The notes under the pieces: generated by a model | What the model was told of the DNA's origin: nothing | The model's database searches: none | The model's input: only the letters and a program-made list of their open reading frames with translations | From: Hyperoplus lanceolatus | Lineage: Eukaryota > Chordata > Actinopteri > Uranoscopiformes > Ammodytidae | Direction of reading: 5' to 3' | Assembly: GCA_026929865.2 (NCBI GenBank) | Contig: CM049410.1 | Location: 22,403,501 to 22,467,500 of the forward strand | DNA: 64,000 bases | Program-made: the position numbers and the translations under genes | In this document: piece after piece, positions 22,277 through 62,837 of the stretch | How the letters are laid out: each line of letters starts with the position of its first letter | Numbering within the stretch: position 1 is the first letter of the stretch

Positions 22277-23041
22277 AGAAGCGTTCACTGACATTTTTCT
22301 CTGGCGACTTAAATTCTATAATCTGCTTCCTCACAAGTGGGCTGTTACACACAGATCACAGGTTAATATAGTGACAGTTTTTTTTTATATAAAGCAGCGC
22401 TTAAATTAAATTAAATAAACCTGAACACCATCTTAACTGTTTTTCCCTATATAAATACACAACCCACTTCCTATAGATTTCCCCCCATAATGACTCAATA
22501 TTAATATAATTTAATTTGTTGACAGGGAGACAGGGAGAGGCCCTGTTTCAACCCAGCACTAACATGTGGATGGAGTGATCCAAACACAAGTGGACAGCTC
22601 TCAGTCCGTGTGTTCACACCTGGCAGTATACATGCGTCTTCTGTGTCCTATTCCACTTCCCCGCTCCGTATGTAAATCAACACCTACATCATTCCCGTTA
22701 GCGTTGCTTCTTTACCGGGAAAAAGAAAGATGGTCCAACACCTCATACAAGGGACAGCTAACTCTGTCTCTGCCGGACTTGTTATTATTGTCTTTTGCCT
22801 TTCTGAAGGAATTCCTCGTACTTCCGACATCTCCGCCTTCGTTACCCCCGACAATTTTGATGTAGTGTTAGCGACACTGCCGTATATGATGTTGGTCATG
22901 ACGTATGTACATGAACGAGTCTGACATGCATGGCTATCCCGGAGATAAAGCATCAGTACTGATAAACAGTTGTCCGCTCGTCTCATTCATATGGTAACCT
23001 ACAACATCACAAGTATCAAGCCTTTTGGTCTCTGAAACGAA
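22277..23041. other. Noncoding stretch, nothing recognised
   Basis: Frames at 22566-22865 and 22684-22986 have no recognisable domain. No repeats or element ends were identified. Confidence 0.45.
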
Positions 23042-23165
23042 CCCGTAACCTTTCAGTGCTTAATGCACACCGTGCTGTCTGGTGTAAAAAATTGCGGAGT
23101 GTACCTGGATGATATTGTTACGTATACAAACACCTGGTCTGAGTACATCGACGAAGAGGATACGA
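23042..23165 (+). pseudogene. Gypsy reverse transcriptase fragment (YLDD part)
   Basis: The plus strand encodes FQCLMHTVLSGVKNCGVYLD followed by DIVTYTNTW. FxxLM...VYLDD is the catalytic segment of Ty3/gypsy reverse transcriptase, with the YLDD aspartates. It is only about 40 codons long and soon loses the frame. It abuts an oppositely oriented upstream part of the same domain. Confidence 0.55.
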
Positions 23166-23450
23166 ATCTGCCTAAGGGACACCATTAACGTTGCGGAAGC
23201 CTGTGCAAAAACACAGTGTTTTGTCTGCCTTGGGTACAAGGAGACAGGGAGAACACCACAGATCAGAGCTGGGGACGGCTAACCCATTTTCCAACAGGCA
23301 ATCAACTTCCTGGAAAAGTGCGAGTTTTGCGGGGTTTACACGGTAAGTGTGCTGCTTAACTGGGTAGTGATCAATATCAACGTTGTGGGAGAGGACAGTG
23401 GTGAGGGACTGGAGTCTGGACGTCTGAGAAAAGAGAGAGATTGGTTTCAA
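23166..23450 (-). pseudogene. Gypsy reverse transcriptase fragment (N-terminal part)
   Basis: On the minus strand the 92-codon frame includes HYPVKQHTYRVNPAKLALFQ, LLENGLAVPSSDLWCSPCLL and VPKADKTLCFCTGFRNVN. This is the N-terminal block of Ty3/gypsy reverse transcriptase (PVKQ-YR, SPWSSP-like, VPK-DG, R-C-DFR-LN). Relative to 23042-23165 it is inverted, so the two pieces do not form one gene as they stand. Confidence 0.65.
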
Positions 23451-23582
23451 TTAATTGAATGAGATCATCCTAGGCTGAATGATCCAAATGGCGCATGTGG
23501 GATTTTAGATTTTCAAGAATCTCTGAGTTGATAACCTGATTTGGTTTGCCACTAACCTCACAGACATGGCACAAGTGACAAA

Positions 23583-23765
23583 ATGTGTGTTACCTACTAC
23601 ATAGGTAGCACAAAAAAAAAAAACTAACACATAGGTTTTTTTTTTGGTGCTACCTAACATAGGTTTTTCTTTTGTGTTACCTACAACATAGGTGTTTTTT
23701 GTTGTTGTGCTACCTAACAAGTTTTGTTTTGTGCTACCTTCCCACTACATACGTTTTTTTCCCCC
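23583..23765. repeat. Short cluster of ACCTA/TAGGT hairpin repeats
   Basis: Alternating GTGTTACCTACTACATAGG, poly(A) or poly(T), and GTGCTACCTAACATAGG words, the same vocabulary as the large array at 39661-42018. Only a few degenerate units are present and no flanking inverted ends were found. Confidence 0.7.
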
Positions 23766-23954
23766 TACTACACATAAGATTCTCCATGCTGACTTATCCG
23801 AGGCTGCTGTTAAGAGAATTAATTGTCAACCCTTTTTATAACAACTTATGAAAACCCATTAATGGAAAGCTGTGATGTAAACAGTTTTTTATTTAAAGTG
23901 GATTCAATTATAAAGCATAATTTATTAACATTTGATTAATTTGGCTAACATTAA

Positions 23955-24215
23955 TTGACAACGAGAGCAGATGAACCTCTTCGTCTGCTCACACCTGGTC
24001 TTCATCTGCAATGAACTCCTCTTCATATACTCCTGCATTCCCTTTGCACTCCTGTGTACCCCGGATCATTCACTCCAGGCTGCCTGCCTCACTCTCTACT
24101 CTGCTTCCCCATTCACCAACAAGCCATTTCCCAGCCCCGTTCGTGGTCTGTTCAATAAACCTGTTTTCATGATTTTAACACCAGTCTATGTCTGCTTTTG
24201 GGACCCAGTTATCGT
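23955..24215 (+). repeat. LTR 3' part (gypsy-like), fragment
   Basis: It contains CTGTTCAATAAACCTGTTTT followed by CATGATTTTAACACCAGTCT and a GGGACCC-rich end. This polyadenylation signal with downstream U5 text is typical of fish gypsy LTRs. The 5' boundary and a partner LTR were not found. Confidence 0.45.
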
Positions 24216-24483
24216 TTACTAAACATAATGATTGCTTAGCCATTAACTAAAAATGAATAAATCAGTTTCTCAAAAGTTAATAAACCCTTTAACACCACTG
24301 AACACACTATACAGAAAAGTATTTTTTTTTATTGTCCAAAATTTAAAAAACAACAACACAGGAAAGAAATAACATGTTATGTTAACATAAAATAAAAACA
24401 AGGCTGCAAATTTCAAGGAACTATTTTAAAATATAAACATAACTGATAAAAAAATAGACATCATTTACATTGATCTCCTTATT

Positions 24484-24764
24484 TATAACAGTTCCCCCTT
24501 CATCAAATCTTCCACCTTCTCCTGAAGGTTTTTGTTGCAGATCTCTGCCTGGCACCTGTTTGAGGGTTTCACCCTCCTTCAAAGTTGCCCTGAGGTTTCC
24601 ATAGGACACTGCATCTGCAGCATGCAGCTCAGAAATGGCACAGCAGTCCATTATACTCTTTCGGTTACAGCCTACTTTTTCATAGGCTGCTGATTTAGTT
24701 TTTCCAGCTTTCACAGCCTCCAGGACCCTAGCATGGCGACCCATGGTCTCCTCTGGGGTACCGA
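24484..24764 (-). pseudogene. CCDC106-like terminal exon, copy 1 (frameshifted)
   Basis: On the minus strand a polypyrimidine tract and AG acceptor (TTTTTTTTCCTTCCAG) lead into a frame encoding GTPEETMGRHARVLEAVKAG, a helix-turn-helix-like KTKSAAYEKVGCNRKSIMD, then ISELHAADAV and LRATLKEGETLK. This resembles the C-terminal domain of the large fish CCDC106-like family (my recognition from general knowledge; function unknown). After TLK the homologous end (KNLQEKVEDLMKGELL and stop) continues in another frame, so the exon is broken by a small indel. A close relative lies 1.4 kb upstream on the same strand (25865-26158). Upstream exons are not seen. Confidence 0.55.
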
Positions 24765-24921
24765 CTGGAAGGAAAAAAAATATTAATGTAAATAAACTGC
24801 AGTATTGTTTACTTTTGTAATGATGGTGATACTGCACTAGTGTAATAAAGTGACATTTAGTGCAAATGCTATACAATATATTTAATATATATAGAATGAA
24901 CGCTGCACGTCAACCTTTCTG

Positions 24922-27707: not shown

Positions 27708-27967
27708 TGTTGAGCATAATACTGAATGGTGCAAAGCCATGTTAAATAGCCTACTCAGGGACGTCATTACGTCAGCGTGCGTGCCTGCGTGCACTGCTAA
27801 TGTCGTGAGCATGCGCAGAATAAACGGTCAGTTGAATCCCAGACCAAAGTGATGATGGCGGCTGTGTGTTTTCTCTCAGTGAATATTAGCCACTAGATGG
27901 TGTTAGCTAGCCACTTTGGATGACTGTAACTACGCGATAGACTGCTGAAAGAATTTCTAACGTAACA
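27708..27967 (+). repeat. 5' LTR of Ty1/copia element
   Basis: TGTTGAGC...CGTAACA, 260 bp. It carries two ACGTCA half-sites 8 bp apart (27761-27766, 27769-27774), like CRE/ATF sites, an AATAAA (27819-27824), a GATGGCGGC YY1-like word, and CCACTAGATGGTG, one base off a CTCF core. It should hold the promoter and polyadenylation signals. Confidence 0.95.
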
Positions 27968-27982
27968 GGTTACGGGCCCAGT
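27968..27982 (+). other. Primer binding site (initiator-Met tRNA, internal)
   Basis: GGTTACGGGCCCAG immediately follows the LTR. Its complement matches the anticodon arm of vertebrate initiator methionine tRNA (CTGGGCCCATAACC) except for one base opposite the anticodon. Copia-type elements of animals are known to prime with an internally cleaved initiator tRNA rather than the CCA end. The identification is by memory of the tRNA sequence. Confidence 0.7.
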
Positions 27983-28066
27983 CATGCAGGCCAAAGGTGG
28001 TTTAGACTTTTATTCGACAGCGACGAGAAAAACTACGAGCTATGGGAAACGAGGTTCCTCGCGCAC

Positions 28067-31000
28067 ATGGAGTTGCGCGGCCTCAGAGAAGTCATCACGG
28101 AGGACCCGCAGATAGACGGGGAAGACGAAGCAGCCCTCGCGGAAGACGAGACCAAGAACGGTGAGGCATATGCAGAGCTGGTGCAATGTCTAGACAACAA
28201 GAATTTGTCATTGGTAATGAGGGACGCGAAACGTGATGGAAGAAGAGCAATGGAGATTCTTCGCGAGCACTACGCGGGAAAGGACAAACCGCGCGTCGTG
28301 AGTTTGTACTGTGAACTTTCCTCGCTCCATAAGGCCAGCAATGAAACGGTAACTGATTACATTATTCGAGCAGAGACTATATTCACGTCATTGAGAAGAG
28401 CAGACGAGCACATTAGTGATGGGCTTCAGATAGCAATGGTAGTTAAGGGGCTACCTGATTCATACAAGCCATTCGTCGTGCACATCACCCAGACAAATGA
28501 CAGTATAACGTTCATCAAGTTTAAAACAAAACTCCGAAGTTATGAGAGCACTGAAAAATATGGGAAGAGTGACGAAAATGTAGAAGAGGACAATGTGATG
28601 AAGACTAGCGGGGCAACATGGGCACGTGGAAGAGGAAGAGGAAAGAAAATAAACCTGGCTGATGTCGAGTGTTATACATGTGGTAAAAAGGGCCACATGG
28701 CAAGGGCATGTCATGATGGATTACAAGCCAGAAGGGAAGAACGAAAATGGGACAAACCACAGCGAGGCAGAGGGCGCGGCCGAGGACGAGACCGTGAGTA
28801 TCTAAAGAAAGCTGATGGAGAAACGGAGGCAGAGCCTACATCGTTCTTTTTCTTTAAAATAAGTGACTGTCCGACAAAAAGAGGAAACAAGAAGGGTCTC
28901 ATGGTCGACTGCGGCGCCACAACACACATGATCAACGACCCCAACAAGTTCATGACAGTTGATGAGAGTTTCAGACCAGAAGGCCACACGATCGAGCTTG
29001 CCGATGGAACCAAGGTGAGCGGGATGGCGAAGATGAGGGGAGACGCCGAAGTCTACTTGCTGGACAGCGAGGGACGACAAGTGAAAACGAGGCTCAAGCA
29101 GGCACTCTACATCCCATCTTTTCCTCAGAACATTTTTTCAGTCAAAGCAGCGACAGCAAACGGAGCCGAGGTCCGTTTCAAGAACAATGATGACTGGCTG
29201 ATCCACAAAGATGGTACCAAGTTCAAAATGGATGTGTATGGTAGGCTGTATTACCTTCGCACAGTAGAACATGAAAACAGTGATGAAGTGAACGGGTGTT
29301 ATGACATTCAAACGTGGCACAAGATACTTGGTCATTGTAATTTTGATGATGTTTCAAAATTAGAAAAGGTGGTAGAAGGGATGGTCATTAAAGGGAAACA
29401 TGACAAGTCCAATACAAATTGTGAAACTTGCACACAGGGCAAATTTACACAAAACAGAAATAGACAAGCAGACGCTAAAGCTACAACTGTACTGGAATTA
29501 GTACATACAGACCTATGCGGTCCAATAGAACCAGCAGATAAAGATGGGTTCAGATATGCTATAGCATTTACTGATGATCACAGTGGGATGATTTTTCCAT
29601 ACTTTATCAAAGCAAAGAGTGACACGACAAAAGCTACTGAAAAGTTCATAGCAGATGTGGCTCCATATGGAAAAGTAAAGTGCATAAGATCTGATAACGG
29701 TACAGAGTTTACTGGGCAGGAGTTCCAGTCTTTACTAAGGAGTAACGGGATAAGGCATGAGACTAGTGCACCCTACTCACCTCATCAGAACGGAACTGCC
29801 GAGAGGGGTTGGAGAACCTTATTTGAGATGTCCCGATGCATGCTATTGGAGAGTAACCTCCCAAAGCAATTATGGACATATGCTGTACAGACAGCAGCTC
29901 AGATCCGTAACAGGTGTTACAGTAAGCGACTAGAGCAGACACCTTACTGTGTTTTCACAGGAAAAACACCTAACCTATCTCACATGAAAATATTTGGCTC
30001 TGAATGCTATGCATACAAGCAGGATAAGAAGAAGCTGGATTCTAGGTGCGCAAAGGGAATCTTTGTAGGCTATGATAAATATAGTCCAGCATATAACGTG
30101 TACAATCCTGAGACAGGAAAAGTCCTAAAACATAGGCTGGTAAAATTTATCACCAAAGGTAACGCAGATAGCCAGACTCAGACAGATTTTAACATAGGGG
30201 ACAACATTGAGTGTTATGGAGATACAACACCAAAGATAGCCAACCAGGGTCAGGAACAGCCTAAGGGGTGTAAAGAGTCAAGTGTTGAGACTACTGAGAC
30301 AAGTCCCACTCTGACAGAAAATACTCAGAAAGAACAGGAAGAAAGCAGGTATCCTACCAGACTAAGGAAGGCTCCAGGCCACTTAAAGCAGTGTAAAGCT
30401 GAGTGTAACAATGATGAGAGTGAAAATGTTGATTATTTCTACAGAGTGACTTATGGTGTACCAAAAACACTTAGAGAGGCTATGGACTCTAAGAAGTCAA
30501 AAATGTGGGCTGACGCGATGGAAGAGGAGATGAACTCTTTAACAGAAAATGAGACTTTTACTCTGACCCCACTGCCACGGGGCAAGCAAGCAGTGGGAGG
30601 TCGCTGGGTATATGCGGTAAAAGAGAGCTCAGATGGATCTGAAACGTGTAAAGCCAGATACGTCGCAAAGGGTTATGGTCAAGTGGAAGGGATTGACTAT
30701 AATGAGACTTTTTCAACGACAGCCAACATGACCTCGGTCCGAGCATTGATGCAGGTGGCTGTACAAGAAGATCTCCTCCTACATCAAATGGATGTGAAGA
30801 CTGCTTACCTCCATGCTCCGATGGACTGTGAGGTATACATGGAACAACCGGAAGGTTTTGAAATCAAGTCAAAAACAGGAGAACACTTGGTATGTAAACT
30901 CAACAAGTCACTGTATGGTTTAAAACAGTCCGGGCGCAACTGGAACATGTTACTGCATGATCACCTTACAGAAAATGGTTTTGTACAAAATGATGCTGAT

Positions 31001-31408
31001 CATTGTGTCTACAGCAGAGAATCTGAGAACGAGAAAGTGATACTGTTAGTATGGGTAGATGACTTACTCATAGCAGCAAGTAACAACACCTCACTCAGTG
31101 ATGTAAAAGAGATGTTGAAGAGAAGGTTTAAGATGAAGGATATGGGTCCACTTAAACACTTCCTGGGTATCGATTTTAAACAGAGCAAAGGAGAGATCAA
31201 AATGACTCAAAAGAGACACATAGAGAAGATGTTGACTAGGTTTGGAATGTCTGAATGCAAACCAAGATCAACCCCATGTGAGCAGAAGTTAAACTTTGAC
31301 ACTGAGGGTGAAGTCATTGACTCAACAGGCTACAGGGAGATAGTAGGTAGCTTGATATACATTATGACATTTACTAGACCCGATCTGAGCTGGGTGGTGA
31401 GCAAATGA
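28067..31408 (+). CDS. Ty1/copia gag-pol polyprotein, truncated by stop
   Basis: A 1113-codon frame. Gag occupies roughly residues 1-195, then a CCHC knuckle (CYTCGKKGHMARAC, 202-215) and an Arg/Gly-rich stretch. Protease has DCGAT at 281-285, an unusual Cys in place of Ser in DSG/DTG. Integrase has an HHCC zinc motif starting at W417-H418 and catalytic D482, D543 and E579, the last two separated by 35 residues. Reverse transcriptase starts near 842 (AVGGRWVYAVKE) and includes MDVKTAYLHAP and the catalytic VDD (D998, D999). The frame stops at TGA 31406-31408, just before RNase H. Similarity to gag (FDSDEKNYELWETRF) extends upstream of the first Met in the same frame, while the only nearby upstream ATG (27984) is in another frame, so a small indel probably removed the true start. 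Polyprotein processing and integration functions follow from the family. Confidence 0.93.
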   Translation: MELRGLREVITEDPQIDGEDEAALAEDETKNGEAYAELVQCLDNKNLSLVMRDAKRDGRRAMEILREHYAGKDKPRVVSLYCELSSLHKASNETVTDYIIRAETIFTSLRRADEHISDGLQIAMVVKGLPDSYKPFVVHITQTNDSITFIKFKTKLRSYESTEKYGKSDENVEEDNVMKTSGATWARGRGRGKKINLADVECYTCGKKGHMARACHDGLQARREERKWDKPQRGRGRGRGRDREYLKKADGETEAEPTSFFFFKISDCPTKRGNKKGLMVDCGATTHMINDPNKFMTVDESFRPEGHTIELADGTKVSGMAKMRGDAEVYLLDSEGRQVKTRLKQALYIPSFPQNIFSVKAATANGAEVRFKNNDDWLIHKDGTKFKMDVYGRLYYLRTVEHENSDEVNGCYDIQTWHKILGHCNFDDVSKLEKVVEGMVIKGKHDKSNTNCETCTQGKFTQNRNRQADAKATTVLELVHTDLCGPIEPADKDGFRYAIAFTDDHSGMIFPYFIKAKSDTTKATEKFIADVAPYGKVKCIRSDNGTEFTGQEFQSLLRSNGIRHETSAPYSPHQNGTAERGWRTLFEMSRCMLLESNLPKQLWTYAVQTAAQIRNRCYSKRLEQTPYCVFTGKTPNLSHMKIFGSECYAYKQDKKKLDSRCAKGIFVGYDKYSPAYNVYNPETGKVLKHRLVKFITKGNADSQTQTDFNIGDNIECYGDTTPKIANQGQEQPKGCKESSVETTETSPTLTENTQKEQEESRYPTRLRKAPGHLKQCKAECNNDESENVDYFYRVTYGVPKTLREAMDSKKSKMWADAMEEEMNSLTENETFTLTPLPRGKQAVGGRWVYAVKESSDGSETCKARYVAKGYGQVEGIDYNETFSTTANMTSVRALMQVAVQEDLLLHQMDVKTAYLHAPMDCEVYMEQPEGFEIKSKTGEHLVCKLNKSLYGLKQSGRNWNMLLHDHLTENGFVQNDADHCVYSRESENEKVILLVWVDDLLIAASNNTSLSDVKEMLKRRFKMKDMGPLKHFLGIDFKQSKGEIKMTQKRHIEKMLTRFGMSECKPRSTPCEQKLNFDTEGEVIDSTGYREIVGSLIYIMTFTRPDLSWVVSK

Positions 31409-31999
31409 TCACAATACCTAGCAGAACCAAAACAACAACATTGGGCTACAGCAAAACACCTACTCAGGTACTTAAAGGGTACTATAGACCAGGAACTACA
31501 CTACAAGAAAATTGAAGCAAACCTACACCTTGAGGGATGTAGTGATGCTGATTGGGCAGCCGATCAAAATGACAGGAGAAGCACAACTGGATACTGCTTC
31601 AGCTTAACTGAAAATGGTCCAGCTATATCTTGGAAAAGTAGGAAACAGCCTACAGTGGCACTGTCAACCTGCGAAGCTGAGTATATGGCACTAGCAGCCA
31701 CTACTCAGGAGAGTATGTACCTTGTACAACTACTTAAAGGAATAGACAGCAGCAACCAGCATGTACCAGTAAAGGTATACGAGGACAACCAGGGGGCGAT
31801 AGCTTTATCAAAGAACCCAGTATGTCGACAGAGAAGTAAACATGTAGATATAAAGTATCACTTTATAAGGTCTGCACACACAGAAGGGAAAATAGCTATA
31901 GAATACTGCCCTACTGCAGACATGGTAGCTGATATCCTTACCAAACCAGTGGTGAAGGCTAAGCTTGACAAGTTCAAGAGGTATTTGTTTGGAGAGTGA
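31409..31999 (+). pseudogene. Copia RNase H domain after the stop
   Basis: The same frame continues without further stops to TGA at 31997-31999. It carries the copia RNase H signatures SDADWAADQNDRRSTTGYCF, STCEAEYMALA, YEDNQGAIALSKN and KHVDIKYHFIR, with the acidic catalytic residues present. It would be translated only by readthrough of the TGA at 31406-31408. One stop separates it from the rest, so the copy is young but defective. Confidence 0.9.
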
Positions 32000-37959: not shown

Positions 37960-38444
37960 CCACAGTACACTTTGAAGACAGTGAAGCATGGTGGCACAGA
38001 CATCATGTTATGGGGATGTTTCTCATACTATGGTGTCGGGTCTATTTATCGCATAACATGGATCATGGATCAGTTTGGATACATTAGAATACTTGAAGAG
38101 GTCATGGTGCTGCTGAAGAGGAAATGCCCTTGAAATGGGTGTTCCAACAAGTCAACGACCCCAAACACACCAGTAAGCGAACAAGATCTTGGTTCCAGAC
38201 CAACAAGATTAACGTTATGGAGTGGCCAGCCCAATCCCTGGACCTTAATCCAATAGAAAACCTATGTGGTGACATCAAAAATGCTGTTTTTGAGGCAAAA
38301 CCAAGAAATGCCGAGGAATTGTGGAATGTAGTCCAATTGTCCTGGGCTGAAACACCTGTTCACAGGTGCCATAAATTGGTCGGCTCCCTGCAACACAGAT
38401 GTGAAGCAGTTCTCAGAAACAGAGGTTATACAACTAAACATTAG
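37960..38444 (+). pseudogene. Tc1 transposase C-terminal half
   Basis: The first part encodes LRPLFKPQYTLKTVKHGGTD, IMLWGCFSYYGVGS and MDQFGYIRILEEVM. After a frame change near 38120 it continues KWVFQQVNDPKHTSK, MEWPAQSLDLNPIENLC and ends RNRGYTTKH. These are the conserved C-terminal blocks of Tc1 DD34E transposases. The Glu of NPIEN is present. The second catalytic Asp is replaced by Val (QQVND) and the first-Asp region is absent, so the protein cannot be active. Confidence 0.8.
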
Positions 38445-39515: not shown

Positions 39516-39660
39516 GATTTTCAGCGCATTTCAAAGAACAACAAAGCAGCAGCAACAAAATCAAATACAACACATTATAATTCAAAAGGTTTTAATAAGA
39601 TTCAAATGAAAGATAGAACCAGTTAGAATAGAACACAGTCTGGGGGTCAGAACACAGGAC

Positions 39661-42018
39661 GGTAACCTTTACAATAAGGTACACAAAATTGTAGTAGCTA
39701 CTACATACCTACTACATAGTTTTTTTTTTTTTTGCGCTACCTATGTGTTAGGTGCACAAAAAAAAAAACCCTATGTGTTACCTACTACATAGTTTTTTTT
39801 TTGCGCTACCTATGTGTTAGGTAGCACAAAAAAACCCCTATGTGTTACCTACTACATAGTTTTTTTTTTTTTGCGCTACCTATGTGTTAGGTAGCACAAA
39901 AAAAACCCCTATGTGTTAGGTAGCACATAGGTTTTTTTTGTGCTACCTATGTGTTAGGTAGCACAAAAAAAAAACCCTATGTGTTACCTACTACATAGTT
40001 TTTTTTTTTGCGCTACCTATGTGTTAGGTAGCACAAAAAAAAACCCCTATGTGTTAGGTAGCACATAGGGTTTTTTTTTGTGCTACCTATGTGTTAGTTA
40101 GCACAAAAAAAAAAACCCTATGTGTTACCTACTACATAGTTTTTTTTTTGGTGCTACCTATGTGTTAGGTGCACAAAAAAAAACCCTATGTGTTACCTAC
40201 TACATAGTTTTTTTTTTGTGCTACCTATGTGTTAGGTAGCACAAAAAAAAAAACCCTATGTGTTACCTACTACATAGTTTTTTTTTTGTGCTACCTATGT
40301 GTTAGGTAGCACAAAAAAACCCCTATGTGTTACCTACTACATAGTTTTTTTTTTGTGCTACCTATGTGTTAGGTAGCACAAAAAAAAACCCCATGTGTTA
40401 CCTACTACATAGTTTTTTTTTTGTGCTACCTAGTGTTAGGTAGCACAAAAAAAAACCCCATGTGTTACCTACTACATAGTTTTTTTTTGTGCTACCTATG
40501 TGTTAGGTAGCACAAAAAAAAAACCCCATGTGTTACCTACTACATTTTTTTTTTTTTGTGCTACCTATGTGTTAGGTAGCACAAAAAAAAACCCTATGTG
40601 TTACCTACTACATAGTTTTTTTTTTTGTGCTACCTATGTGTTAGTTAGCACAAATAAAAAAAACCCTATGTGTTACCTACTACATAGTTTTTTTTTTGCG
40701 CTACCTATGTGTTAGGTAGCACAAAAAAAAAAAAACCCCTATGTGTTAGGTAGCACATAGGGTTTTTTTGTGCTACCTATGTGTTAGTTAGCACAAAAAA
40801 AAAAACCCTATGTGTTACCTACTACATAGTTTTTTTTTTGTGCTACCTATGTGTTAGGTAGCACAAAAAAAACCCTATGTGTTACCTACTACATAGTTTT
40901 TTTTTTGTGCTACCTATGTGTTAGGTAGCACAAAAAAAAACCCTATGTGTTACCTACTACATAGTTTTTTTTTGTGCTACCTATGTGTTAGGTAGCACAA
41001 AAAAAACCCCTATGTGTTACCTACTACATAGTTTTTTTTTGTGCTACCTATGTGTTAGGTAGCACAAAAAAAAAAACCCCATGTGTTACCTACTACATAG
41101 TTTTTTTTTGTGCTACCTATGTGTTAGGTAGCACAAAAAAACCCTATGTGTTACCTACTACATAGTTTTTTTTTGTGCTACCTATGTGTTAGGTAGCACA
41201 AAAAAAACCCCATGTGTTACCTACTACATAGTTTTTTTTTTTGTGCTACCTATGTGTTAGGTAGCACAAAAAAAAAACCCTATGTGTTACCTACTACATA
41301 GTTTTTTTTTTGTGCTACCTATGTGTTAGTTAGCACAAATAAAAAAAACCCTATGTGTTACCTACTACATAGTTTTTTTTGTGCTACCTATGTGTTAGGT
41401 AGCACAAAAAAAAACCCTATGTGTTACCTACTACATAGTTTTTTTTTTGTGCTACCTATGTGTTAGGTAGCACAAAAAAAACCCTATGTGTTACCTACTA
41501 CATAGTTTTTTTTTGTGCTACCTATGTGTTAGGTAGCACAAAAAAACTATGTGTTACCTTACATAATTTTTTTTGCTACCTATGTGTTAGGTAGCCAAAA
41601 AAAAACCCCTATGTGTTACCTACTACATAGTTTTTTTTTGTGTACCTATGTGTTAGGTAGCACAAAGGTTTTTTTTGTGCTACCTAACACATAGGTAGCG
41701 AAAAAAAAACTATGTAGTAGGTAACACATAGGTTTTTTTTGTGCTACCTAACACATAGGTAGCACAAAAAAAAAACTATGTATAAGGGTTTTTTTGTGTA
41801 CCTAACACATAGGTAGCACAAAAAAAACTATGTAGTAGGTAACACATAGGGGTTTTTTTGTGCTACCCAACACATAGGTAGCACAAAAAAAAAACTATGT
41901 AGTAGGTAACACATAGGGTTTTTTTTTGTGCTACTAACACATAGAAAAAAAAAAAAAACTATGTAGTAGGTATGTAGTAGCTACTACAATTTTGTGTACC
42001 TTATTGTAAAGTGTTACC
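39661..42018. mobile_element. TIR transposon filled with a hairpin satellite
   Basis: The right end, read inward, begins GGTAACACTTTACAATAAGG then TACACAAAATTGTAGTAGC. The left end is the same except for one missing A. Both sides are flanked by CACAGGAC (39653-39660 and 42019-42026), a perfect 8-bp target duplication, which shows insertion as a unit. The interior has no coding capacity. It consists of about thirty copies of a ~68-bp unit and, from about 41665, about five copies in inverse orientation. Eight-base duplications occur in hAT and P-like superfamilies; the ends do not let me choose. A second element with the same ends is at 52972-54213. Confidence 0.85.
39720..41985. repeat. ~68-bp tandem hairpin repeat array
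   Basis: Each unit is a run of T, GTGCTACCTA, loop TGTGT, TAGGTAGCAC, a run of A, ACCC, then TATGTGTTACCTACTACATAG. GTGCTACCTA and TAGGTAGCAC pair, the T and A runs pair outside them, and ACATAG pairs with CTATGT beyond that, giving a hairpin of about 25 bp per unit. Some units are fused (TAGGTAGCACATAGGG at about 39918, 40053, 40748). T/A run lengths vary between units. Orientation reverses near 41665. Confidence 0.9.
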
Positions 42019-42026
42019 CACAGGAC

Positions 42027-46766
<4,740 letters not shown>

Positions 46767-52050: not shown

Positions 52051-52751
52051 TCTGGTCCATATGTTCACAACGTATCCACAGCTAGGGATTGGTGAGAGTT
52101 GAAATGCATGAAATGCTTGTAACTGGTTCAAATTGAGTCAACTGTTCTACAACCAAACTACAGTGAGCTCATTCCTATAGAAGGTATTGAGTAGTGGGTC
52201 AAAGGTCAAAGCAAACATCCCTGTGATCCCAGATTCAACACAGATGAACAAAAAGAGGAAGTGGAAGTGGCGTGTCCCTGGCACATTCTATTCCATTGTG
52301 TGTGGGCTCATCAGGGCAGTGGAAGAAGGTCGGATAGAGAGAAAGATAGATGGATACTGTATTGATCCCTGACATCCAGTAGCAGCAAACGTAAAAACAA
52401 AAACAACCCCAAACACACCCCCCCCACCCCTGTCAAGTTAAAACTGTACAGAAACTAACTAAATGAAACTTTGCAACAAGATGAAAAAAAAACTTTATGT
52501 AAACAAATCAAATCTCAATTAAACCTTGCAGAAAATACCTATGTTTCTTCACTGGGGAGTGTTAAGAGAGGGTGGGGGCTGGGAGGGAGGGCTATAATGG
52601 AGAGGTCATGGAAGGGTCAGTGAGGGGTCGCAGCGGGGTTGCTGAGAGTTCACTGGGAGCTCTCAGCCAATGGGAGACCAGGAGACAAAACTGCAGTATG
52701 AGAAGACGCTGGTGCTTCACATTAAGATGCTGCAAAACACATGCGTGCACG

Positions 52752-52836
<85 letters not shown>

Positions 52837-52960
52837 CGTTCAATTGAAACTCATAGATATTTTCAGCAGTTTTTGAATAAATATTCAAATTTGGCAATAT
52901 CCATCTAATTTTGCGTGAATGAGCAAATCCTTAAAAAGCAAAAATTGGGATGTTGAATAA
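52051..52960. repeat. Duplicated ~910-bp segment, copy A
   Basis: The sequence from TCTGGTCCATATGTTCACAA to GATGTTGAATAA recurs almost unchanged at 53194-54133. It contains an inverted LINE-tail-like GATACTGTATTGATCCCTGA and a CA array (52755-52833). Copy A lies directly upstream of the transposon that carries copy A'. The 61-codon frame at 52187-52372 is present in both copies but has no recognised domain. Confidence 0.9.
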
Positions 52961-53007
52961 TAAAAATAATTGGTAACACTTTACAATAAGGTACACAAAA
53001 AAAGAGT

Positions 53008-53180
53008 AGTTACCCTTTTAAAAAGGTAAGTTTACCTTTTAAAAAAGGTTAGTTTACCTTTTAAAAAGGTAAGTTTACCTTTTAAAAAAGGTTAGTTTAC
53101 CTTTTAAAAAGTAAGTTTACCTTTCAAAAAAGGTTAGTTTACCTTTTAAAAAGTTAGTTTACCTTTTAAAAAGGTTAGTT
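53008..53180. repeat. ~21-bp palindromic tandem repeat
   Basis: Repeated AAAAAGGTWAGTTTACCTTTT units, each self-complementary (AAAGGTAA pairs with TTACCTTT). Confidence 0.9.
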
Positions 53181-53193
53181 TACTAGATCTAAC

Positions 53194-53914
53194 TCTGGTC
53201 CATATGTTCACAACATATCCACAGCTATAAATTGGTTAGAGTTGAAATGCATGAAATGCTTGTAACTGGTTCAAATTGAGTCAACTGTTCTACAACCAAA
53301 CTACAGTGAGCTCATTCCTATAGAAGGTATTGAGTAGTGGGTCAAAGGTCAAAGCAAACATCCCTGTGATCCCAGATTCAACACAGATGAACAAAAAGAG
53401 GAAGTGGAAGTGGCGTGTCCCTGGCACATTCTATTCCATTGTGTGTGGGCTCATCAGGGCAGTGGAAGAAGGTTGGATAGAGAGAAAGATAGATGGATAC
53501 TGTATTGATCCCTGACATCCAGTAGCAGCAAACGTAAAAACAAAAACAACCCCAAACACACTCCCCCCCACCCCTGTCAAGTTAAAACTGTACAGAAACT
53601 AACTAAATGAAACTTTGCAACAAGATGAAAAAAAAAACTTTATGTAAACAAATCAAATCTCAATTAAACCTTGCAGAAAATACCTATGTTTCTTCACTGG
53701 GGAGTGTTAAGAGAGGGTGGGGGCTGGGAGGGAGGGCTATAATGGAGAGGTCATGGAAGGGTCAGTGAGGGGTCGCAGCGGGGTTGCTGAGAGTTCACTG
53801 GGAGCTCTCAGCCAATGGGAGACCAGGAGACAAAACTGCAGTATGAGAAGACGCTGGTGCTTCACATTAAGATGCTGCAAAACACACGCGTGCACGCACG
53901 CACGCACACACACA

Positions 53915-54004
<90 letters not shown>

Positions 54005-54133
54005 TATAGCGTTCAATTGAAACTCATAGATATTTTCAGCAGTTTTTGAATAAATATTCAAATTTGGCAATATCCATCTAATTTTGCGTGAATGAGCAAA
54101 TCCTTAAAAAGCAAAAATCGAGATGTTGAATAA
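53194..54133. repeat. Duplicated segment, copy A' inside the transposon
   Basis: Same orientation as copy A and differing by few substitutions. The main difference is the CA array length (53904-54005 against 52755-52833). Left junction is CTAGATCTAAC/TCTGG; right junction is GTTGAATAA/CTTACC. Confidence 0.9.
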
Positions 54134-54213
54134 CTTACCTTTTTTGAAAGGTAAACTTACCTTTTTAAAAGGGTAACTACTCTTTTTTGTGTACCTTATT
54201 GTAAAGTGTTACC

Positions 54214-56722: not shown

Positions 56723-57485
56723 GAGCTTTTAAGCGGAAGTGGCTTACTTCCGGGACATGGGACCTCTCGGCTCGAAAAATTACAACGGTAGTCAATGGAA
56801 AGAAATGTATTATTTTCTGGTCCCAGTCACGAAATGCCTTCGATTACACACATGTTTCGTATGGATTTAGATGGTATTTTTTTGTGCAAAGAATGGAACA
56901 ATTTAGCAAGTAGAAGCTGGATACGGGCAGGTTTTGTGCAGAGCGCTTTTGTGGACTACAGCTCTTCGCTGCTCTTGACACTTATGATATGCGTCACCAC
57001 CACTCGCACCCGCTTAGCTCAGAAACATGGCTGTATCTTTAAGGCACTTTACCGCCTTCTTTCAATGACTAGACAAAAGTCTTCAGCGTGGCGAAAACCA
57101 CTACACAAGTGGACATGTGGAGAGTTTCAATTTCTCGAGTGGGGAGATTGTTGGCGTTGTCCACGCCAGCCATTAGCATTAGCATTAGCACTGTCAGTCG
57201 AGAAGTGGAGGGAATGTGTTGAGGTGACGTCACAGAGGCGACAAGACTTGTAGTTGTTCTCGTAACATTTTTTCAAAAGCCGTTAGACGAATAATCATAC
57301 AACATACCGTCAAACTCTTCACATGAAAAATTATCATTTAGACCCATACAAAACATATATGTAATCCAAGGCATTTAATAACTGGGACCAGAAAATAGTA
57401 GATTACTTTCCATAGACTCCCATTCATTTTTTTTCAGCTGAGAGGTCCCATGCCCCGTAATTCCGCCACTTCCGCTTAACAGCTC
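56723..57485. mobile_element. TA-flanked MITE with long inverted ends, copy 1
   Basis: Left GAGCTTTTAAGCGGAAGTGG, right the inverse of GAGCTGTTAAGCGGAAGTGG, with about 200 bp of imperfect inverted similarity and TA on both sides. The 152-codon frame 56795-57253 is unlikely to be a gene: its first third also appears, inverted, in the neighbouring MITE as part of the terminal repeat. Confidence 0.75.
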
Positions 57486-61231: not shown

Positions 61232-62837
61232 CAGGTCCTTCTCATATAATTAGCATATTGTGATAAAGTTCAATATTTTCTGTAATGTACTGATAAACAT
61301 TAGACTTTCATATATTTTAGATTCATTACACACAACTGAAGTAGTTCAAGCCTTTTATTGTTTTAATATTGATGATTTTGGCAAAAAAGTAAAGAAAAAC
61401 CAAAAATCCCCATCTCAAAAAATTAGCATATTTCATCCGACCAATAAAAGAAAAGTGTTTTTAATACAAAAAAGTCAACCTTCAAATAATTATGTTCAGT
61501 TATGCACTCAATACTTGGTCGGGAATCCTTTCGCAGAAATGACTGCTTCAATGCGGCGTGGCATGGAGGCAATCAGCCTGTGGCACTTCTGAGGTGTTAT
61601 GGAGGCCCAGGATGCTTCGATAGCGGCCTTAAGGTCATCCACAGTGTTGGGTCTGGTGTCTCTCAACTTCCTCTTCACAATATCCCACAGATTCTCTGTG
61701 GGGTTCAGGTCAGGAGAGTTGGCAGGCCAATTGAGCACAGTAATACCATGGTCAGTAAACCATTTACCAGTGGTTTTGGCACTGTGAGCAGGTGCCAGGT
61801 CTTGTTGAAAAATGAAATCTTCATATCCATAAAGCTTTTCAGCAGATGGAAGCATGAAGTGCTCCAAAATCTCCTGATAGCTGCATTGACCCTGCCTTTG
61901 ATAAAACACAGTGGACCAACACCAGCAGCTGACATGGCACCCCAGACCATCACTGACTGTGGGTACTTGACACTGGACTTCAGGCATTTTGGCATTTCCT
62001 TCTCCCCAGTCTTCCTCCAGACTCTGGCACCTTGATTTCCGAATGACATGCAAAATTTGCTTTCATCCGAAAAAAGTACTTTGGACCACTGAGCAACAGT
62101 CCAGTGCTGCTTCTCTGTAGCCCAGGTCAGGCGCTTCTGCCGCTGTTTCTGGTTCAAAAGTGGCTTGACCTGGGGAATGCGGCACCTGTAGCCCATTTCC
62201 TGCACACGCCTGTGCACGGTGGCTCTGGATGTTTCTACTCCAGACTCAGTCCACTGCTTCCACAGGTCCCCCAAGGTCTGGAATCGGCCCTTCTCCACAA
62301 TCCTCCTCAGGGTCCGGTCACCTCTTCTGGTTGTGCAGCGTTTTCTGCCACACTTTTTCCTTCCCACAGACTTCCCACTGAGGTGCCTTGATACAGCACT
62401 CTGGGAACAGCGTATTCGCTCAGAAATTTCTTTCTGTGTCTTACCCTCTTGCTTGAGGGTGTCAATGATGGCCTTCTGGACAGCAGTCAGGTCGGCAGTC
62501 TTACCCATGATTGCGGTTTTGAGTAATGAACCAGGCTGGGAGTTTTTAAAAGCCTCAGGAATCTTTTGCAGGTGTTTAGAGTTAATTAGTTGATTCAGAT
62601 GATTAGGTTAAGAGCTCGTTTAGAGTACCTTTTCATGATATGCTCATTTTTTGAGATAGGAATTTGGGGTTTTCATGAGCTGTATGCCAAAATCATCAGT
62701 ATTAAAACAACAAAAGACCTGAAATATTTCAGTTGTTGTGCAATGGATCTAAAATATATGAAAGTTCAATTATTATCATTATATTATGGAAAATAATCAA
62801 CTTTATCACAATATGCTAATTATATGAGAAGGACCTG
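61232..62837 (-). mobile_element. Nearly complete Tc1-like transposon, 1606 bp
   Basis: CAGGTCCTTCTCATATAATT at the left is mirrored exactly at the right, and TA flanks both sides (61230-61231, 62838-62839). The inverted ends are long (about 200 bp), and internal copies of the terminal motif are visible (ATTAGCATATT near 61425, inverse near 62635). It encodes a DD34E transposase on the minus strand broken by one frameshift. The length is what is expected of a full Tc1 element. Confidence 0.93.
61508..62508 (-). pseudogene. Tc1 DD34E transposase with one frameshift
   Basis: The minus-strand start at 62508 (MGKTADLTAVQKAIIDTLKQ) opens an N-terminal DNA-binding part with a helix-turn-helix (residues about 24-44, QKEISERIRCSQSAVSRHL) and a basic GRKKCGRKR linker. 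A second helical region follows, then the first catalytic Asp (D148 in LFSDES). After GRVNAA (about 61880) the frame is lost. The rest (YQEILEHFMLPSAEK, FQQDLAPAHSAKTT, SPDLNPTENLW, end GFPTKY at 61508) is intact in the next frame. The second Asp (QQDLAPAH) and Glu (NPTEN) are separated by 34 residues, giving DD34E. All three catalytic residues survive, so a single small deletion is the visible defect. Cut-and-paste at TA is the family function. Confidence 0.9.

Follow-up and report, generated by a model that had tools for sequence, protein, structure and literature searches.

The 2,358-bp element at positions 39661-42018 of the analysed window (the whole 64,000-nucleotide stretch presented here) is non-coding, is inserted with an exact 8-bp target duplication, and very probably belongs to the non-autonomous foldback DNA transposons, as type A of a family that comprises at least three types. 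We assigned it to the foldback class because it consists of inverted and unequal tandem-repeat arms with a single switch of orientation between them. The array of hairpin units that it contains is better regarded as a pair of foldback-transposon arms built of tandem repeats, which is a known design, than as a cargo. The evidence base is one genome assembly (806.7 Mb in 527 contigs), in which the window lies on contig 16; its size, together with the Tc1-type and copia-type frames of the window, points to a probable teleost. The features located in the window are collected in Table 1.

Table 1. Features of the window that bear on the transposon family, in window coordinates
Feature	Position	Strand	Basis or remark
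Degenerate type A array remnant, ~200 bp, 28-bp periodicity	23580-23780	+	tip-less
Target-site duplication, left copy CACAGGAC	39653-39660	.	equals 42019-42026 at length 8 only (6-12 tried)
Left terminal inverted repeat, tip with 2-bp deletion, and subterminal palindrome GTAGTAGCTACTAC	39661-39719	+	98% to right 60 bp
Left arm, 28.8 copies of 67-bp hairpin unit	39706-41666	+	TRF and orientation markers
Right arm, about 5 copies of 67-bp unit, reversed	41667-41972	-	TRF and orientation markers
Right terminal inverted repeat, 20-bp tip exact	41959-42018	-	tip search and self-comparison
Target-site duplication, right copy CACAGGAC	42019-42026	.	direct flank comparison
Second element, type B, exact 20-bp tips at both ends	52972-54213	+	palindrome array 52998-53183, rearranged inside

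On the minus strand, the right end of the window element (41999-42018) is an exact copy of the 20-mer GGTAACACTTTACAATAAGG. The left end, at 39661, reads GGTAACCTTTACAATAAGG and is without the AC, so that the two 20-mers are not both exact; the inverted match between the element ends reaches 60 bp at 98%. Three matches to the tip with up to 3 mismatches were detected in the window, where 100 shuffles gave an expectation of 0. The flanking CACAGGAC copies are identical at 8 bp and do not match at 6, 7, or 9-12 bp. No stop-to-stop frame of at least 110 aa was found inside the element, neither Rfam nor tRNA scans gave a hit in the window, and no relatives were found among phages, plasmids, and viral contigs. 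The adjoining stretch at 42050-42140 carries GTAGCACTGGTGCTA-like inverted motifs with a weak 25-bp likeness to the unit (84%) and is probably a different repeat.

In total, the window element holds ~33 hairpin units of ~67 bp, which start about 45 bp inside the ends and change orientation at ~41665. Orientation markers point one way 56 times and then the opposite way 7 times, with no exception. A single unit folds into a stem of 20 bp and a loop of 5 nt, with a folding energy of -28.8 kcal/mol as RNA (z -7.2) and -21.4 as DNA (z -8.2); in both cases none of 200 shuffles folded as well. The complete element matches its reverse complement at 77%, and this inverted self-match covers 1.00 of its length. 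The earlier note on this DNA had described an exact 8-bp duplication, an absence of coding sequence, a flip of the array near 41665, and end-to-end inverted symmetry, all of which were borne out, and the folding of one unit, which it had suggested, gave the stable stem described above. Two of its statements held in part: of the inverted ends of 20 bp, the right tip is exact but the left is 2 bp short, and the approximately thirty self-pairing units were recovered with a strong fold, but the pairing length of about 25 bp was slightly overestimated.

A genome-wide search for the 20-bp ends, also proposed in the earlier note, retrieved 2,385 exact copies of the tip GGTAACACTTTACAATAAGG (1,210 + 1,175) and 0 copies of a reversed-pattern control. 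The central hairpin of the unit matched 827 times (460 + 367; control, 0). Tips similar to GGTAACACTTTACAATAAGG presumably occur also in abundant cyprinid repeats. The first 100 of the 827 hairpin matches (exact 25-bp match) fall into 32 array loci on contigs 1-3, all of which were inspected; if the density is the same elsewhere, this extrapolates to ~265 such loci in the genome (32/100 x 827). With tips accepted within 3 edits, both tips were present at 28 of the 32 loci and one tip at the other 4 (L053, L054, L060, and L073), and no locus was without a tip. Under looser matching, damaged second ends became visible at L054 and L073. At L053, positions 2409-2540 contain two tips of the same orientation, 111 bp apart, that flank a single hairpin unit, with the second tip fused directly to the unit, possibly the trace of aberrant transposition or gap repair within the array.

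Target duplications were assessed for 28 elements, namely 27 of the 28 two-ended loci and the window element. The flanking 8-mers were identical in 21 of 28, agreed at 7 of 8 positions in 5 and at 6 of 8 in 1, and were less alike in 1 (L023, 3 of 8). When left and right flanks of different elements were paired as a control, only 1 of 756 combinations was identical and 8 of 756 agreed at 7 of 8 positions. The four one-ended loci, L049, and L033 were excluded from this comparison. L049 has a large insert and a shifted end, and by eye its duplication agrees at 7 of 8 positions after a one-base shift; L033, found by its tips only, has a 4-kb insert and an 8/8 duplication. The target sites are AT-rich and without a sharp motif, and 32 identical duplications were counted among 50 exact-tip pairs. 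These data support the conclusion that the element is mobile and that the array forms its body and spreads with it. The earlier note had claimed a mobile element that spreads the array and carries it between its ends, a claim that would fail if the array occurred mostly outside such ends; it survived, as the array lay within or beside tips at 32 of 32 sampled loci.

The architecture of the window element recurs across the copies. When orientation markers were scored along the 28 elements under a one-switch model, 20 of the 28 displayed one clean switch and 891 of 906 markers fitted one switch per element, compared with at most 649 of 906 in 200 shuffles of marker order. The eight exceptions are L038, L050 (in which the right arm was not seen), L052, L056, L057, L067, L070, and L072. 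In most copies the array units start some 45-60 bp inside the ends, and the arms are unequal, as illustrated by the 56 and 7 markers of the window element. Among the type A elements in the facing tip pairs of contig 1 described below, the inverted self-match is 1.00 in 6 of 7 and 0.15 in L033 with its 4-kb insert. Hence, the features that define foldback elements were all observed: inverted arms that account for most of the element, unequal arms with a variable number of tandem repeats, and a target-site duplication. A coding-like stretch (MTRQKSSAWRKPLHKWTCGEF...) without a Pfam match is common to the inner 4 kb of L033 and window positions 56792-57253.

The sole point in favor of an assembly artefact, in which collapsed or mis-joined repeats produced the inverted arms, is the difficulty of assembling tandem and inverted repeats. 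We consider such an origin extremely improbable, given that 28 of 32 loci, spread over three contigs, show the tip-array-tip arrangement with differing flanks and duplications, that 20 of 28 elements switch orientation cleanly, and that the window contains no N.

The history of the arrays was assessed by comparison of close copies and of individual units. The elements L022, L062, and L071 lie on contigs 1, 2, and 3, respectively, with different target duplications, and are 99.7-99.9% identical with homopolymers collapsed (99.4-99.7% uncollapsed). They differ by 1-3 mismatches (collapsed), small indels, and gaps that span from one to a few whole units. When the unit order of one partner was shuffled, the 1-3 mismatches rose to 8-21 on average, although this control overlaps the real values: the best single shuffle of L062/L071 gave 1 mismatch, equal to the real count, and that of L064/L068 gave 4, below the real 6. 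The comparison of close copies indicates a change in the copy number of units, and whole expanded arrays appear to have been transposed and then to have gained or lost units.

Divergence was calculated for 336 units from 25 elements, keeping units of 58-76 bp between intact anchors and dropping others. The units differ by 4.55% when compared within an arm, by 4.27% between the two arms of an element, and by 4.83% from one element to another. The pooled divergence within an element is about 4.4% compared to 4.8% between elements, a difference reached by 1 of 500 permutations. Because the divergence within elements is close to that between them, most unit diversity predates dispersal, and homogenisation in place is weak. 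The units of the window element differ by 3.7% from each other and by 4.7% from those of other elements; this above-average likeness would fit some local expansion of the element's long left arm.

These observations bear on the alternative that satellite DNA is emerging here, with an array that amplifies itself and transposon ends that are incidental flanks. Such a process would be consistent with the wide range of lengths (425-2,740 bp over the 28 elements), the unit-sized gaps between close copies, the slightly greater divergence between than within elements, the greater likeness of units in the window element, and the tip-less remnant at 23580-23780, near which no tip was found within 4 edits in 22501-24800 (a single 5-edit hit lies at 24477). 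However, none of the 32 array loci recovered by the exact 25-bp match (first 100 of 827 matches, contigs 1-3) was tip-less, so that long head-to-tail arrays unbounded by ends were absent from this sample, and the inverted arrangement of the arms is kept; the single array seen without tips, the window remnant, is degenerate and only ~200 bp long. We therefore regard an emerging satellite as very unlikely and retain the foldback transposon as the preferred reading. Of the earlier suggestion that a satellite is being born inside a mobile element and spread by it, the spread of the array with the element stands, but the birth of a satellite found no support in the sample, given the lack of tip-less arrays, a longest element of 2,740 bp, and little element-specific homogenisation.

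The tip delimits more than the hairpin-unit elements. The first 100 of the 2,385 tips, all on contig 1, yielded 32 facing pairs, and 8 of the tips left unpaired were inspected as short stretches. By subterminal sequence, 7 pairs were assigned to type A, 10 to type B, and 14 to type C, with 1 other; a tandem repeat makes up at least half of the element in 9 of the 32. In type B elements, the arrays are built of a 21-bp palindrome, for example AAAAAGGTAAATTTACCTTTT. Among the 14 type C copies, eight (L015, L018, L026, L027, L028, L032, L034, and L037) are 3,897-4,352 bp long, inverted over 0.91-0.94 of their length, and share one common sequence; the remaining six are inverted over 0.38-0.95. 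The ~4.25-kb type C copies were considered as autonomous elements and rejected, as no ORF of >100 aa was present in the two examined and the inverted repeat is nearly complete. One tip thus bounds three self-pairing designs: hairpin-unit arms, 21-bp palindrome arrays, and a 4.25-kb inverted repeat.

Tip-like motifs also occur inside some of these elements. All 4 type C copies that were examined carry three near-copies of the tip in each arm, in the orientation opposite to the end of that arm. Of these 24 internal copies, 22 carry 3 mismatches, all in the outer five bases, and the inner 15 bases are kept, a pattern that would fit binding sites immune to cutting. The type A unit contains 3 octamers that differ from GGTAACAC by at most 1 mismatch (P 0.0004 from shuffles, for a statistic chosen after looking), two of which are the two arms of one hairpin. 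No tip-like octamers were found in type B units, and no internal 20-bp tip copies in the A and B elements examined (W1, L022, W2, and L011).

The second window element belongs to type B, and its flanks, AAATAATT and AAATATTT, match at 7 of 8 positions. The stretch at 52700-52960, to the left of this element, is repeated inside it at 53845-54133 (89%), and 52600-52833 recurs at 53745-53978 (99%). Because the left-hand stretch is repeated inside, the ends of this element may reflect a tandem duplication with later loss rather than one simple insertion.

No transposase was found in the tip-bounded elements, as judged from the ORFs of 6 of the 32 pairs, among them the long A and B copies L010, L016, L030, and L033 (six of these ORFs compared with Pfam), and from the ORFs listed in the 1.5 kb inside 4 tips; the Pfam scan revealed a reverse transcriptase fragment in L016. 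The GG ends and 8-bp duplications fit the Merlin superfamily, for which a GG terminus with 8-9-bp duplications is described in the accessible part of the source (PMC8101967), and an 8-bp duplication is compatible with several superfamilies. The genome contains 11 matches to Merlin-type transposase (DDE_Tnp_IS1595), and at the 2 of these loci that were read no tip was found within 4 edits in ~1.5 kb on each side. Likewise, no tip was found within 4 edits in 7 kb at the 1 of 15 P-type transposase matches that was read, and the ends of the zebrafish P-superfamily element Pdre2, as given in the available portion of its description, differ from the GGTAACACTTTACAATAAGG tip (PMC10983969). The palindrome GGTGTTACCGGTAACACC near a Merlin-like locus resembles two back-to-back tips and was taken as chance, since the rest of the tip is missing. 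Other transposon sequences in the window include a copia-type frame with gag, integrase, and reverse transcriptase (27941-31999; 1,155 + 196 codons in one frame with one stop between) and Tc1-type transposase frame fragments at 61508-62607 and 38097-38444 (HTH_Tnp_Tc3_2 and DDE_3 matches).

Based on these results, we propose that a transposase supplied in trans would recognise the 20-bp tip GGTAACACTTTACAATAAGG, excise the element, and reinsert it with an 8-bp duplication. The arms, observed as tandem arrays of self-pairing ~67-bp units facing each other across an inversion point, would have grown in ancestral copies, been dispersed whole by transposition, and later gained or lost whole units. 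The changes in length likely arose by slippage, unequal exchange, or gap repair, aided by hairpins that would stall copying. The arms may in addition persist by multiplying tip-like recognition motifs, as suggested for types A and C but absent in type B.

The last step can be extended to the idea that the arms are selected transposase-binding arrays in which more repeats give better mobilisation, which would add to the foldback explanation rather than replace it. The same proposal is in print for Galileo and Tetris, according to the accessible text of PMC4079207, and the tip-like motifs of type A units and the internal tip copies of type C point in this direction. This idea falls short of covering the whole family because tip-like octamers are missing from type B units and no internal 20-bp tips occur in the A and B elements examined; we hold it to be possible, at somewhat under even chances. 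Since one tip carries at least three unrelated self-pairing designs, self-pairing itself, rather than a particular sequence, could have been repeatedly selected, for example by helping copying in gap repair or mobilisation via a folded strand or an extruded hairpin, but we view this as unlikely.

Literature on the tip sequence, fish foldbacks, and zebrafish internal tandem repeats left the family undescribed, in a search with subscription papers and repeat databases mostly outside it, which does not establish absence from print. Several known elements share single features with it. The Xenopus elements miDNA4 and Xstir are non-coding with internal repeats of variable number, and the zebrafish Angel is non-coding with intrastrand pairing; in contrast to the family described here, a centrally inverted, element-filling array is not part of their descriptions in the accessible part of the review (PMC12628747). 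Merlin elements resemble the present ones, as far as the available text of the source describes them, in terminal GG, 8- or 9-bp duplications, inverted ends of at least 24 bp, and, in some, internal tandem repeats (PMC8101967), but no Merlin transposase was seen with these tips at the 2 of 11 loci read.

The likeness is closer to two foldback-like elements of flies. Galileo, a member of the P superfamily in Drosophila, has long inverted foldback-like arms and 7- or 8-bp duplications and, in some copies, tandem repeats in the arms; in the part of the study available, these are reported for one D. willistoni copy, with expansion also in D. mojavensis (PMC4168063). Galileo includes copies with transposase sequence, whereas no coding copy was found here, and arrays were present in every sampled type A copy. 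The nearest precedent found is Tetris of Drosophila virilis, a non-autonomous foldback element whose arm tandem repeats (TIR-220) seeded satellite-like arrays, according to the accessible part of the report, which also cites FB and sea-urchin elements (PMC4079207). The Tetris repeats are ~220 bp long, with a long flanking domain on one side and an inner domain on the other, whereas the units described here are ~67 bp long and self-pairing and, in most copies, start about 45-60 bp from the ends; moreover, Tetris repeats form satellite-like arrays of kilobase size, whereas the present sample contained no long tip-less array.

The family is thus a probable vertebrate counterpart of the fly foldback elements, with many copies. 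Its close copies on different contigs, which differ mainly by whole units, make the rate of arm growth and shrinkage measurable, and the sharing of one tip by three self-pairing designs offers a direct way to test whether arm repeats are kept as binding sites or for folding. Compared with the known systems, what appears to be new is the probable occurrence of a foldback family in a vertebrate, arm units that are themselves hairpins, and the use of one tip for three self-pairing designs.
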